Below, in pieces: positions 12,549-38,415 of a stretch of DNA of 64,000 bases (its first letter is position 1; each line of letters starts with the position of its first letter). The stretch is from a virus. Both the position numbers and the translations under genes were made by a program. Under the pieces are notes generated by a model, which made no database searches, was not told where the DNA came from, and was given only the letters and a program-made list of their open reading frames with translations. The stretch lies in IMG/VR virus record IMGVR_UViG_3300023202_000383, positions 186,001-250,000 of that record. One strand, 5' to 3'.

Positions 12549-13238
12549 TCAGTTTTTGTTTGCGTTGGCTTGTTCGCTAACATCCTCCCATTTTTCCCAT
12601 TCTGCTTCTAGTTTGTCTCTCGGCAAATCTGGTAGGTGGTGCATGTGTATTACTTTTGGTCTAGCAACTAATTTAAAGTTTGACGACCTAACATTCCATT
12701 CTGGCGAAAGTTTTTGTACGTTTATGTCTCTGTTGAATATTAGGTGGTTTAGAACAGATTGGTCCGATGTCCACCCTTCTTGTTCACCTATCTCATTATA
12801 TCTATCTATTGCTTCGTCTAAAACATTTATCACTCTGTCATTCATCCTATAAAATATTACACCAGTATTTAAGTGGCCTGGGTTATATCCCAAAAACAGT
12901 TTCTTGTCGTAATCAACACTCATATCTTTAGCTGCTGCGATATCAAAATTAAACCACATCACATCTTCTGGCCGACTTAGTATCTCGGTATCTGAATCGA
13001 AGAAAACTGTTTGGTCATATGGTGATGCTCGTAATGCTCGGAGTTTTGTCAAACCCCAATTATCATCCTGCTCTATTGGTCTCTGAGTTATTTTCATAGA
13101 TCCTGCCAGGGGCAGAATCGCGTCTGTGAATATGGTTATTGGTATATCACTCAGTTTCCTTAGGCTTGCTATGCTATGCAAAGCCCATCTATTGTACATT
13201 TCTCCAGTAGCAATATAAACAGCCCCATATGTCGCCAT
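12549..13238 (-). CDS. Glycosyltransferase, GT8-like
   Basis: 229 residues. VFFDSDTEI is the DxD metal motif, with HLNTGVIFYR, TSDQSVLNHLIF and VIHMHH in the order seen in GT8-type retaining galactosyl/glucosyltransferases. AGGAG lies upstream of the ATG. It probably acts on a cell or virion glycan together with the other transferases here. Confidence 0.75.
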   Translation of the reverse strand: MATYGAVYIATGEMYNRWALHSIASLRKLSDIPITIFTDAILPLAGSMKITQRPIEQDDNWGLTKLRALRASPYDQTVFFDSDTEILSRPEDVMWFNFDIAAAKDMSVDYDKKLFLGYNPGHLNTGVIFYRMNDRVINVLDEAIDRYNEIGEQEGWTSDQSVLNHLIFNRDINVQKLSPEWNVRSSNFKLVARPKVIHMHHLPDLPRDKLEAEWEKWEDVSEQANANKN

Positions 13239-13247
13239 TATTTAAGT

Positions 13248-13424
13248 TCATTCTCCTCTGATTGCTTTATTTATTGACTTAGCCATATCTTTTACTAACT
13301 TCTCTTGTAAGTCAGTACCATGCAGCTTTTTAAGATTTTGTGTGGTTTCAAATGTCCATACTCCCATCAACTTACGTTCTTTTACAAATCGTTTGTAAAT
13401 TTGATGTAGTAGACTTCCCCACAT
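13248..13424 (-). CDS. Small basic protein
   Basis: 58 residues, ATG 13424 to TGA 13248, starting MWGSLLHQIYKRFVKERKLM. It is helical and basic. It ends within the ribosome-binding region of the GT8-like gene, so the two appear co-translated. No family recognised. Confidence 0.5.
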   Translation of the reverse strand: MWGSLLHQIYKRFVKERKLMGVWTFETTQNLKKLHGTDLQEKLVKDMAKSINKAIRGE

Positions 13425-13429
13425 ATCAA

Positions 13430-13780
13430 TTAAATACCGTCGCGGCTGCGGCGGGTATCCGACTCCGCGAGTGAATCGGCGATTTCGGTATTCTTGTGTG
13501 GGTATTCGCTGTCGAACTCAACAAGTAGTGCCAGTTGACTCCGCTCGTAACGCAAATGAGTATTGTCTAGATGCTCGAGCAAATTCAGCCAGAGTTCGTA
13601 TCCCGCGCCAGTGACGTTGCAGTCTTTCGCTTCGACAACGAGCTTTTTCAGCGGGGATCGGCGCTCATCCAGTTCAATTGCGTATTCGTTTAGAATCTCT
13701 TGCACCTGCGAGGTGTCATCGAGCGTCCCCGAGAGCGTGATCCTCCGAGGTCCTCGAATGAGTTTGAATTTTTCAGCCAT
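13430..13780 (-). CDS. Hypothetical protein, possibly STAS-like, in GC-rich insert
   Basis: 116 residues from the ATG at 13780, which has AAGGAGAAG upstream. RITLSGTLDDTSQVQEIL and LKKLVVEAKDCNVTGAGYEL weakly recall a STAS or SpoIIAA-type fold. The GC content and codon choice (CTC, GAG, CGC) differ sharply from the neighbours, as in the fragment just upstream, which suggests recent transfer of 13430 to about 14285. Function not established. Confidence 0.55.
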   Translation of the reverse strand: MAEKFKLIRGPRRITLSGTLDDTSQVQEILNEYAIELDERRSPLKKLVVEAKDCNVTGAGYELWLNLLEHLDNTHLRYERSQLALLVEFDSEYPHKNTEIADSLAESDTRRSRDGI

Positions 13781-13854
13781 CTGTCTTCTCCTTCTCATTC
13801 TACGATTTTGGTTGAGACTCTTGGGATGCCGCAACCATTGTGATTGTAGCAGTT

Positions 13855-14292
13855 TCAGGTACTCTTAGGCCGAATGGATCGAAGATTCTTGTATTTCTCA
13901 AAATGAGGGCTGTCTTCTGGAATGAACAAATGATCGTGTGGCTGCATGTAGCGGATCGCGAAAGCAAGCACCGGACACGTGAGCACCGACTTCCACCGGG
14001 GATTGTAAACGGCGGGGGATCCACATCCATGGTAGAACTGGCCAAGCATGAGGCCCACATCTATAAAGATCGGCTTGATCTGGTCATATAATCTGTCAAT
14101 CGGCTCGCATGGTTTGCCTTTGGCTAGCGGGTAGCTGTCGAAAAACGTGAGAAAGGTCTTCAGGTTTGTCGGGTCGGCCGGCATGCCATCTCGGTCGACG
14201 TCATGTACGGGTTCTGTACGAAGAAAAAGCTCGATTTGTTCACACAGCTCTGTCTCAATATTGGCGCAGAAATTGTTGGGGCACGTTTCTTG
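13855..14292 (-). pseudogene. 5'-truncated gene, possibly DUF6875-like
   Basis: The frame is open from just after a TAA at 14293 down to 13855. Upstream of the first ATG (14184) it already reads like protein, beginning QETCPNNFCANIETELCEQ. Later segments PIFIDVGLMLGQFYHGCGSP and VLAFAIRYMQPHDHLF resemble a DUF6875-type pattern, a match I hold loosely. No start codon lies at the proper distance, and the sulfotransferase fragment abuts it. I read it as the 3' part of a transferred gene that lost its start. If the ATG at 14184 is used, a 109-residue product is possible. Confidence 0.5.
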
Positions 14293-16525: not shown

Positions 16526-16796
16526 CTCCCCTGCCTGGACTTGAACCAGGAACCTAGCGGTTACAGCTACCCGGAAATTTCTATCCGGACTGGACTTTCT
16601 CTTGGCCATGTCTTTCGATTTAGGCCCATCCCGTAAAGTCTCTACACTTGCCCGGCTTTCGCCTGCTAGCTCGGTCGGGATTACCATGCCATTATGGGTT
16701 AGGCTTCCCCGAATTAGGGATGTTTTCACCATGTAGTTTCCTACATGGGCTGCAATTGTTTACAGCCGCTCGCTCTACCAATTGAGCTACAGAGGA
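16526..16796 (-). tRNA. tRNA-Asn (GTT), split by a group I intron
   Basis: Exon 1 is 16762-16796 and exon 2 is 16526-16563. Joined, they give a 73-base tRNA: acceptor TCCTCTG/CAGGGGA, discriminator G, anticodon stem AGCGG/CCGCT with loop CTGTTAA giving GTT, T arm CCTGG-TTCAAGT-CCAGG. The body closely resembles bacterial tRNA-Asn. Read without splicing, the anticodon would falsely appear as GTA. The intron splits the anticodon between bases 35 and 36. Confidence 0.88.
16564..16761 (-). ncRNA. Group I intron, 198 nt, in tRNA-Asn
   Basis: P1 forms between exon end GGCTGT and internal guide GCAGCC with a U-G pair at the 5' splice site. The intron ends in G. Core-like elements follow in order: GGCATGGTAATCCCGACC (P4/J region), a GCGAAAGC tetraloop hairpin, GTGTAGAGACTTTACGGG (P3/P7 5' side) and AAGAGAAAGTCC (P7 3' side). 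It is small and holds no open frame of its own. It should self-splice; the splice sites were chosen to restore the anticodon loop. Confidence 0.82.
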
Positions 16797-20024: not shown

Positions 20025-20690
20025 CTACGGGCCAATAGTGTTAAAACTCTTACATCTGTTCAGTCTCTTGCACGGCGTGCACTTCATGCATCGTTTGTAT
20101 CCGGTCATTTCCACAGTGTGGATGAAGTCTGGGCTTTCACAAACCCATAGTTTATTTAATATCGGTTTATTAAGTTTCTTTTCTATCTTCTTCAAATAGC
20201 TTATAATGTGACCTTTGTGCGTGTTGATAAATGGCGTATATAGCGTTGGTGTGTGAGTATCTTCAAAGCTCATTAATTCCCAATGCGCTCTAAGCAGGTC
20301 TATTATGTCATTTATGTAATCTCTCGCTTCGTCGCCTCTATTGTATCCAACACAAATCTGATCGGCCTCGTGTTCCCCTGCAGCAAAAGCAGCTGCTTGT
20401 ATCCACAGTGGTGGTTGAGAAAAACCATCTTTGGGCCGCCCGTAAACACTGATTTCAGTATTTACGAATTTTACTCTTTTATCGCATATTTGAAGATCTA
20501 TATGGTAATTGTCGTCATAGATCGATTCTAGATATTTTACTACCTGCCTTTCGCACCAGGCTTTGCCCGCATTGGCAGGCGACAGATCTACATATAAAGC
20601 GATAATTTTATCGGTAGTTTCCTCTAGAAGCTTGAAGAAGCAAGCTGTTGAGTCTAGGCCACCCGATAAAAGCAGAATAGTAGTCTTCAT
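20025..20690 (-). CDS. queC: QueC-like 7-cyano-7-deazaguanine synthase
   Basis: 221 residues from the ATG at 20690. LLLSGGLDSTACFFKLL is the PP-loop ATPase motif. The C-terminus CMKCTPCKRLNRC carries the zinc-binding Cys cluster of QueC. It makes preQ0 from carboxy-deazaguanine with ATP and ammonia. Phages use preQ0 in 7-deazaguanine DNA or tRNA modification. No queD, queE, folE or transglycosylase gene is in this window. The ribosome-binding GGGAG lies inside the acceptor end of tRNA-Glu. A longer start at 20786 would read through that tRNA and is rejected. Confidence 0.82.
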   Translation of the reverse strand: MKTTILLLSGGLDSTACFFKLLEETTDKIIALYVDLSPANAGKAWCERQVVKYLESIYDDNYHIDLQICDKRVKFVNTEISVYGRPKDGFSQPPLWIQAAAFAAGEHEADQICVGYNRGDEARDYINDIIDLLRAHWELMSFEDTHTPTLYTPFINTHKGHIISYLKKIEKKLNKPILNKLWVCESPDFIHTVEMTGYKRCMKCTPCKRLNRCKSFNTIGP

Positions 20691-20692
20691 AA

Positions 20693-20764
20693 TGCTCCCA
20701 AGGGGAATCGAACCCCTATTTCCTGCGTGAAAAGCAGGTGTCCTAGCCGTTAGACGATGGGAGC
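20693..20764 (-). tRNA. tRNA-Glu (TTC)
   Basis: Acceptor GCTCCCA/TGGGAGC, discriminator A, anticodon stem CCTGC/GCAGG with loop TTTTCAC giving TTC, T arm AGGGG-TTCGATT-CCCCT. Three bases separate its 3' end from the queC ATG. Confidence 0.92.
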
Positions 20765-20768
20765 ATAT

Positions 20769-20793
20769 CGCCCCGTGCATACTCAACGGGGCG
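20769..20793. terminator. GC-rich hairpin upstream of tRNA-Glu
   Basis: CGCCCCGT and ACGGGGCG form a perfect 8-base stem with a 9-base loop. It could end transcription from the tRNA-Phe side or guide tRNA processing. No strong T-run on either side. Confidence 0.4.
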
Positions 20794-36014: not shown

Positions 36015-36331
36015 TGAAGAACGTCATGCAAGCCATGGCGGAAGAGCTAGTCCGTAGACTATGCTATTGCGAGCTGGTGCGCAAAAAGTGGCCCTCAAAC
36101 GGATTCCCACACTATAGATGGAATAGTGGTATTGGTGGAGAGCATGGTCTCATTGAGGTAATATATTCTGATTGTATATTGGCTGAATTTTGGCCAGACT
36201 GCTCCACAGTATGGTATCCGAAGTCCAAAGGATGGCATTATATTCTTGAGGACCCAAATTTCGAGCCAGAATTTCTGGTGTACGAAATGTATGCGTACTT
36301 GGTTGCACACTACCTACTAGGGTCTCGATGA
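36014..36331 (+). CDS. DPxFDP-family small protein
   Basis: 105 residues, start in a TGATG overlap. N-terminal helix MQAMAEELVRRLCYCELV and YILEDPNFEPEFLVYEMYAY. The stop overlaps the helicase ATG. Function unknown. Confidence 0.6.
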   Translation: MKNVMQAMAEELVRRLCYCELVRKKWPSNGFPHYRWNSGIGGEHGLIEVIYSDCILAEFWPDCSTVWYPKSKGWHYILEDPNFEPEFLVYEMYAYLVAHYLLGSR

Positions 36332-38415
36332 AGTTACCAGAAAACATAGAAGCTAGAGACTACCAGCTCCAGATCATATCCGAAACCATTGAAGCAATCG
36401 AGCGTGGGCATAAGTCTATTTTGATAGTCTCGCCAACTGGATCGGGCAAGACTATTACGGGGCACTTACTTCTGCATGAGCTTTACAATAGATATGGTTA
36501 CAATGCTGGGTGGACCTCAATGCGTAGGTTCCTTTGGCGTCAAGCACGTAGATCGAATGAAAAATTGACGAAGTTTCCGCATGTCCGATATTTTAGTCTA
36601 TTTGATAAAGACTTTCCAACCGACGTCGATGTGCGAGTGGAAGATGAGTGCCTTCCGGCACCCACTATAATAGAAACGGAAGATGGGCTAAAAACGATTA
36701 GAGAAATCGTTGATTCAAAATATTCTGGAAGAGTGCTTTCATTCAACGGAACAAACAATGAATGGTGTGAGGTTACTAATTGGTATAAAAGAGACAACGA
36801 TAAAACTTGGATTAATCCAACAAGAAACAACCCAAATAAATACACTGACACATTCAAGCAATTGTGGTGTACACCAGATCATACATTATTCTATATTGAT
36901 GATCCATTAAATCCTATCATAAAACAAATTGCAGCCAAAGACATTGCCGGAAAGTATCTTGTTGCAAAACCAACAAATTATAAACGAAACAACATAAATC
37001 CTTACTATAATAGTGATCAGTTATCGGTCATAATTGGATCTGTCTTGGGTGATGGCTCGGTTGGCAAGTCTGGCAGAGTAAGACTGCAGCATTGCAGTAT
37101 GCAATCTGAATATTTAGACTGGAAAGCCAAAATACTTGGTGGCAATAAATCAAGACATGATAAATGGTCTGGATATAGATGGAAGCACGACGGATTTAGA
37201 GACAATTTTGCCGTAACTAGCCAGACATCTAGAATAAGAGATATATGCTACATAAATAATCAAAAGAAAATCACAAACGACATAGTTGAAATGGCGGATA
37301 TAAAGACTGTTGCTATATGGTATATGGATGATGGGAGTATTAGTAGAAAACGTGCAGTGTTCCATACTGAAGGATTCGACAAAGAATCGGTAATAAACTG
37401 CCAGAAAATATTGGCAAAGTTCGACATAAATAGCAAAATAGCTAAGTCGAAAACAAAATACCATATTATACAATTAAATGTAGAAAATACTAAGAAAATG
37501 ATGGGATTAATATCAAAATACAGATGCTCATCTATGAATTATAAATTTACAGAACATCATGACTTATATAAATGGGACAGCAAAAAATTAGACTTCGGAA
37601 CAATCAAAATAAATCATATTAATAATAAACAAGGTAGGGCGATAAAAGGTAGGAAATTGAAGTATGACATAGAAGTCAAAAAGAATCATAACTTTTATGC
37701 CAATGGATATTTAGTACACAATTGCCACCATAGCGCATGCAATACGTCTATTTGGCAGCGCGAGACCATCGACCCGGCAATTGACATTGGTTTGACGGCT
37801 ACTAACTATCGTACTGACAAGCTGAAGTTGGCTTATAGTAAGGTTGTCAACGGCCCAGATATAGATTTTCTTGTGAATAACGGCTTCTTGAGTCCTTATC
37901 ACTTCTATGCGCTCAGGCAGAGATGGAATGCAGACAACATAGCACGCTTGTATTTGTCGGACGCTGCCAGGTGGGGCAAAAGTGTGATCTTCTTATCCAA
38001 GGTGGACAACTGCTATAAAGCAATGAATATTTTGTCCGATGCTGGAATAAAATGTGATGTTGTGCATGCTAATAGCGACCAAGAGAACCAGATCGAAGCG
38101 TTTATCAACAATGACTTGCAAGTTTTGCTGAACGTCTTTGTTCTTACAGAAGGTTTCGACGTACCAGACTTGAAGACCGTATTTGTTAGATCTGCATCAG
38201 AGGGGCCGACAATACAGATGTGTGGACGAGTGCTTCGTACTCATGGCAGCAAAAAATATGCGCAAATAGTCCAGCCGTATTCTGCCAAGCATCCTTTCAC
38301 CAATATAGCTGAGGCATCAAAGAAATTGGTGCAGAAGAGAGGCAATTGGGATGAAGTTTCTACGAATTCCTTAGTAGAGATAGCGTCTAAAGCTATATTT
38401 AGGAGAAGATGGTGA
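36328..38415 (+). CDS. Superfamily 2 helicase interrupted by an intein
   Basis: 695 residues; the extein alone is 337. Motif I is IVSPTGSGKT. Motif II (VEDE/CHH, DEAH-box type) is cut by the intein between Glu107 and Cys466. After the intein come GLTAT (motif III type), SVIFLSKVDNCYKAM, LTEGFDVPDLKTVF and QMCGRVLRTHGSKK (motif VI). It resembles phage UvsW/SSL2-type DNA or RNA helicases used in recombination and replication. Overlaps with both neighbours place it in an operon. Confidence 0.88.
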   Translation: MKLPENIEARDYQLQIISETIEAIERGHKSILIVSPTGSGKTITGHLLLHELYNRYGYNAGWTSMRRFLWRQARRSNEKLTKFPHVRYFSLFDKDFPTDVDVRVEDECLPAPTIIETEDGLKTIREIVDSKYSGRVLSFNGTNNEWCEVTNWYKRDNDKTWINPTRNNPNKYTDTFKQLWCTPDHTLFYIDDPLNPIIKQIAAKDIAGKYLVAKPTNYKRNNINPYYNSDQLSVIIGSVLGDGSVGKSGRVRLQHCSMQSEYLDWKAKILGGNKSRHDKWSGYRWKHDGFRDNFAVTSQTSRIRDICYINNQKKITNDIVEMADIKTVAIWYMDDGSISRKRAVFHTEGFDKESVINCQKILAKFDINSKIAKSKTKYHIIQLNVENTKKMMGLISKYRCSSMNYKFTEHHDLYKWDSKKLDFGTIKINHINNKQGRAIKGRKLKYDIEVKKNHNFYANGYLVHNCHHSACNTSIWQRETIDPAIDIGLTATNYRTDKLKLAYSKVVNGPDIDFLVNNGFLSPYHFYALRQRWNADNIARLYLSDAARWGKSVIFLSKVDNCYKAMNILSDAGIKCDVVHANSDQENQIEAFINNDLQVLLNVFVLTEGFDVPDLKTVFVRSASEGPTIQMCGRVLRTHGSKKYAQIVQPYSAKHPFTNIAEASKKLVQKRGNWDEVSTNSLVEIASKAIFRRRW
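36649..37722 (+). mobile_element. Intein with LAGLIDADG endonuclease in helicase motif II
   Basis: 358 residues (108-465 of the protein). First residue Cys (CLPAPTIIETEDG), block B CTPDHTLFY with the TxxH motif, two LAGLIDADG-type helices (SVIIGSVLGDGSV and VAIWYMDDGSIS), C-terminal block YDIEVKKNHNFYANGYLVHN, last residue Asn, then +1 Cys. All splicing residues are present, so the intein should be active. Codon use is AT-rich compared with the extein ends. Confidence 0.9.

Follow-up and report, generated by a model that had tools for sequence, protein, structure and literature searches.

Does a self-splicing intron sit within the anticodon of a tRNA gene in a very large phage and, if so, is it peculiar to one genome? 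The question is raised by a locus on the minus strand of a 64-kb window (positions 186001-250000 of a 256,507-bp virus record), where two exons had been predicted to give tRNA-Asn(GTT) after removal of 198 nt. ARAGORN confirms this at base level. It calls the joined exons (Table 1) a 73-nt cloverleaf, tRNA-Asn(gtt), in which the acceptor, D, anticodon and T stems are all paired, and in intron mode it recovers exactly the same gene with a 198-nt intron from the unspliced DNA, the only split-tRNA call across the window. The insert lies between anticodon bases 35 and 36 (U35/U36), as the original prediction had it, a placement borne out both by this call and by bacterial homologues at the same site (see below). 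Just upstream, 16842-16805 (minus strand) resembles the 5' half of a tRNA with no 3' half in sight and is possibly a remnant.

Standard annotation misses this gene, since default callers are silent at the locus: default ARAGORN calls no tRNA and a default Rfam scan lists nothing there, the best tRNA covariance match to the unspliced DNA reaching 13.6 bits. The expected misannotation as tRNA-Tyr(GTA) did not materialize, because the gene is overlooked instead; the tRNA-Tyr reading, reported by no caller, was rejected. As neither the 34 tRNA hits in the whole record nor the 35 tRNAs that ARAGORN calls around these hits include an intact tRNA-Asn, the record shows no tRNA-Asn besides the split gene. 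The phage encodes tRNAs with G34 for Tyr, Asp and His, plus Asn once spliced, and a QueC-like protein of the 7-deazaguanine pathway is encoded at 20025-20786 of the window (minus strand). A further tRNA, at 132691-132763 of the record (minus strand, opposite to its neighbours), has the anticodon TTA and would read the stop codon TAA.

Table 1. Features of the split tRNA-Asn gene and its intron (window coordinates).
Feature	Position	Strand	Basis
5' exon of tRNA-Asn(GTT), positions 1-35, last base U35	16762..16796	-	ARAGORN, spliced and unspliced DNA
3' exon of tRNA-Asn, U36 to position 73, CCA not encoded	16526..16563	-	ARAGORN; sequence
198-nt ORF-less group I intron	16564..16761	-	RF00028 match; covariation with 13 homologues; fold z-score
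Internal guide sequence GCAGCC, intron nt 9-14	16748..16753	-	Sequence
P2, 7 bp, GAAA loop	16730..16747	-	Both-side changes in 5/7 pairs
P3 5' strand CAUCCC	16717..16722	-	Alignment
P4 5' strand UCGGGG	16707..16712	-	Invariant in 14 sequences
P4 3' strand UCCCGA	16675..16680	-	Invariant in 14 sequences
Extra CCGA, tandem copy at P4/P6 junction	16671..16674	-	Absent from 128/129 comparable introns
P6a, GAAA-capped	16650..16666	-	Pattern as in bacterial homologues
P7 5' strand with bulged A	16635..16642	-	Invariant in 14 sequences
P3 3' strand GGGAUG	16627..16632	-	Alignment
P8, GAAA-capped, CCUAA/AUGG motif	16604..16626	-	G-C vs C-G and U-A vs G-C changes
P7 3' strand	16592..16598	-	Invariant in 14 sequences
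P9.0 5' strand	16589..16591	-	Both-side changes in 2/3 pairs
P9, GAAA-capped	16571..16588	-	Both-side changes in 3/7 pairs
P9.0 3' strand and terminal G at 3' splice site	16564..16567	-	Alignment

The insert has the anatomy of a group I intron. Under permissive settings it matches the Rfam model RF00028 from end to end (16771-16571, minus strand, model positions 1-253 of 253; 45.3 bits, E=1.6e-10), which upholds the proposed identity with a score under the curated cut-off of 50 bits; this is why a default scan leaves it unlisted, and one bacterial homologue likewise falls short at 49.3 bits. Its RNA folds better than 200/200 shuffled versions (z = -3.95). The guide sequence forms a 6-bp P1 with the exon sequence GGCUGU, placing G9·U35 at the 5' splice site, and this U·G pair is found in 14/14 sequences when the phage intron is aligned with 13 bacterial homologues. 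In the same alignment P3 and P7 of the pseudoknot core are both paired, and P7, with its bulged base and the G-C pair of the guanosine site, does not vary; the strand carrying the bulged A is presumably the guanosine-binding site, as in established group I anatomy. The terminal G is positioned by a 3-bp P9.0, P5 could also be assigned, and a weak P10 amounts to about one pair. Every signature named in the original prediction (U·G pair, terminal G, P7 elements, GAAA cap) is therefore present, although its single GAAA-capped hairpin is one of four GAAA loops (L2, L6a, L8 and L9). GAAA loops in L2 and L9 are seen together with CCUAA/AUGG motifs in P5 and P8, and by resemblance the intron is probably IC3-like. 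The Rfam match, the compensatory pairing described below and the tRNA set of the record support the reading that a group I intron interrupts this phage tRNA-Asn between bases 35 and 36. That it might instead be a tRNA intron removed by enzymes, or one of the short 'enigmatic' kind known from Lak phages, is highly improbable; unclassified phage tRNA introns are indeed on record in the available text of Devoto 2019 (PMC6784885), but neither type would account for a full-length group I covariance match and a covarying P3-P7-P8 anatomy.

Group I introns of bacterial tRNAs had been listed beforehand as those of Leu, Ile, Arg and fMet, a list that proved far too short. Scanning bacterial genomes with an intron core motif and running ARAGORN on the matches uncovered many intron-split tRNAs of many kinds, among them a tRNA-Asn split at the same base in a Burkholderiaceae MAG, with ordinary chromosomal genes on the same contig. 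A homologous tRNA-Asn(GTT) intron is carried by 13 of 74 genomes of one Burkholderiales family, in one case on a 3.7-Mb contig. Sampling 399 genomes across the order brought up three full-length matches, every one within that family, and in a class-level sample the starting genome alone matched. These homologues in 13 genomes are what in the main refutes a chance resemblance or an assembly artefact, which is scarcely credible: the record is a metagenomic contig and no second intron copy was found in IMG/VR, but ARAGORN in intron mode made no split-tRNA call in 10 shuffled windows, and the E-value given above points the same way. Identity between the phage intron and the 13 bacterial introns is about 70-79%, while the phage exons are 74-80% identical to the bacterial exons and about 81% identical to tRNA-Asn genes of cyanophages. 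Since the exons are no closer to those of intron-bearing bacteria than to those of cyanophages, they do not point to a joint transfer of tRNA and intron.

The alignment of these 14 sequences supports the fold through compensatory change. Standard pairs fill 95.1% of pair cells, and sliding the strands by 1-3 columns lowers pairing to 30-43%. Changes on both sides occur in 15 pairs, as against 5.0 ± 1.3 in shuffles, a value reached by 0/500 of them, and P6 is undercounted here because the 4-nt insertion discussed below leads MAFFT to misplace it in the phage row. Several compensated changes set the phage apart from all the bacteria: C-G vs G-C in P5, G-C vs C-G and U-A vs G-C in P8, A-U vs G-C in P9, and G-C vs A-U and U·G vs G-C in P9.0; the differences in P2 are likewise compensated. 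The changes in P9.0 provide independent support for the 3' splice site. Evidence from the bacteria bears on splicing itself. A motif search detected an intronless tRNA-Asn in 0/13 of the intron-bearing genomes, which may be incomplete and may hold variants that escape the motif, and in 8/13 intron-free relatives (the five negatives showing that variants can be missed), a difference with a one-sided chance of about 0.001. If the split gene is these bacteria's only tRNA-Asn, it must be spliced, and the bacterial lineage of the intron presumably splices in vivo.

We therefore favour, with a probability of about 0.8, an active ORF-less group I intron in the sole tRNA-Asn(GUU) of a phage whose genome spans at least 256 kb, self-splicing as follows. 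After transcription the intron would fold, its guide GCAGCC pairing with GGCUGU of the 5' exon so as to hold U35 in the U·G pair. Attack after U35 by a P7-bound guanosine would come first, and the freed U35 would then attack after the terminal G198, the joined halves forming tRNA-Asn. Catalysis by this particular copy is likely but unproven, and the reason for caution is a stretch of four extra nucleotides between P4 and P6, a perfect tandem repeat of the preceding CCGA. Among 129 comparable introns in the fetched loci, the phage copy alone has an insertion at this junction, which is normally continuous, P4 and P6 both being present. The duplication could either impair the ribozyme or be accommodated as a harmless bulge. 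In the former case the locus might descend from a group I intron that is now inactive, with a disrupted P4-P6 stack and a dead tRNA-Asn gene. The uniqueness and position of the repeat lend themselves to this scenario, which we nevertheless regard as rather unlikely: the remaining helices are intact, with changes compensated since the split from the bacterial homologues, skipping the four nucleotides brings P6 and P6a into exact agreement with the bacterial pattern, and the stems of the tRNA all pair.

No close copy of the intron and no second copy of the locus were found in IMG/VR, and INPHARED holds no near DNA relatives of the phage. Searches with the large terminase returned one identical 18-kb contig and others at about 40% identity (in one of the two scans the TerL segment was a poor choice), relatives too few and too distant for an intronless allele in a sister phage to be shown. 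The terminase gene itself (record 101145-104039) contains an in-frame intein-like insert, the adjacent portal-like gene appears to begin another, and a DNA helicase gene at 36328-38415 of the window (plus strand) has an internal match to LAGLIDADG homing endonucleases, probably an intein.

A group I intron in a phage tRNA-Asn had been expected to be unusual. In a review of the field, phage introns are all said to reside in protein genes despite the many tRNA genes of phages (Hausner 2014, PMC3984707), the word 'intron' is absent from the text of the huge-phage paper, and the authors of tRNAscan-SE 2.0, who list tRNA-Ile2 introns in Acidovorax and Burkholderia, state that finding group I introns in tRNAs was outside the design of their program (PMC8450103). 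Lak phages have tRNA introns, termed 'enigmatic' and to those authors' knowledge unreported before (Devoto 2019, PMC6784885, available text). Our search of an open-access library turned up no earlier account of group I introns in phage tRNAs or in tRNA-Asn. The locus is nonetheless no one-off. Using patterns of the intron core, 224 IMG/VR loci were fetched, and 74 of them passed a strict split-tRNA test (perfect anticodon stem, U33, purine 37, exon ending in U and intron ending in G); because the loci were picked by intron motifs, 74/224 gives a proportion of such introns and does not measure how common they are among phages. The commonest split tRNA is tRNA-Leu(UAA), interrupted at 34/35, others being Met(CAU) at 36/37 and Arg(UCU) and Asn(GUU) at 35/36; splice sites other than those of Leu, Met, Arg and Asn are provisional. 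These sites come from the stem-and-loop test, which superseded an automatic assignment (minimum P1 of 4 pairs) that had returned odd anticodons for several tRNAs. A terminase of one family was found in 10 of 30 survey records tested, 9 of these 10 being in the strict set, and terminase matches in two records (G838, from the L143 record, and G839, from the L152 record) contain several in-frame TAG or TGA codons, which suggests recoded phages. On one viral contig (L223, about 12957-13870), tRNAs for Arg (UCU) and Leu (UAA), each with a group I-like intron, lie within ~1 kb.

Split tRNA-Leu(UAA) genes are also present in two named phages, a 735-kb huge phage and the cultured Agrobacterium phage Atu_ph07. 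In the latter (MF403008, about 112890-113251) ARAGORN finds the gene split by a 278-nt group I-like intron; its core motifs are plain, the intron region has no RF00028 match at E<=0.001, and GenBank annotates only hypothetical proteins and no tRNA at this place. Atu_ph07 offers a cultured phage system in which splicing can be examined. That phage tRNAs often bear such introns, missed by annotation, is of greater interest than the single case: dozens of further phage contigs, one cultured phage included, show the same arrangement in other tRNAs, and tRNA inventories of large phages are corrected accordingly.

A tree was built from 47 of 79 introns, the rest being without the core pattern used for trimming. 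The window intron and the 13 bacterial introns form one group (support 99/97). Outside it fall L195 and L273, a further two phage introns that interrupt tRNA-Asn at this base, so that the 35/36 site was probably entered more than once. The data are compatible with either direction of transfer between phages and bacteria. We infer a near-neutral passenger that phages and Burkholderiales bacteria have at some time exchanged, and the intron would in that capacity serve as a marker of intron traffic between the two. Could phages instead keep such introns for a benefit, the unspliced tRNA serving as a store shielded from host anticodon nucleases until splicing frees it? Anticodon-loop bases 33-35 would be locked in P1 of the precursor, and such protection, if real, would explain anticodon-loop introns in so many unrelated phages. 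We consider it improbable, and passive mobility accounts for the data equally well.

How does this intron compare with known systems? Group I introns in phage protein genes (td, nrd, terL and DNA polymerase) are self-splicing and often accompanied by homing endonucleases. The tRNA-Asn intron would share with them the nature of a self-splicing phage ribozyme, a property predicted in its case, but it differs in lying outside a protein gene and in having no ORF of its own. The Lak megaphage introns also interrupt tRNA genes of very large phages; they were found with a eukaryotic tRNA model, are set apart by their description and are not called group I in the available text (Devoto 2019, PMC6784885). 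The introns of cyanobacterial and plastid tRNA-Leu(UAA) and of proteobacterial tRNA-Ile and tRNA-Arg, assigned to subgroup IC3 (PMC3984707, PMC8450103), resemble it in their small size, anticodon-loop position, core motifs, U·G pair and terminal G, whereas their tRNAs and insertion bases are different and their genes cellular rather than viral. The 13 Burkholderiales introns share with it the tRNA, the insertion base, the P1 design and the clade, yet they are longer (207-238 nt vs 198 nt), show in P1 an A×C mismatch in place of the G-C pair of the phage, and are devoid of the CCGA duplication.
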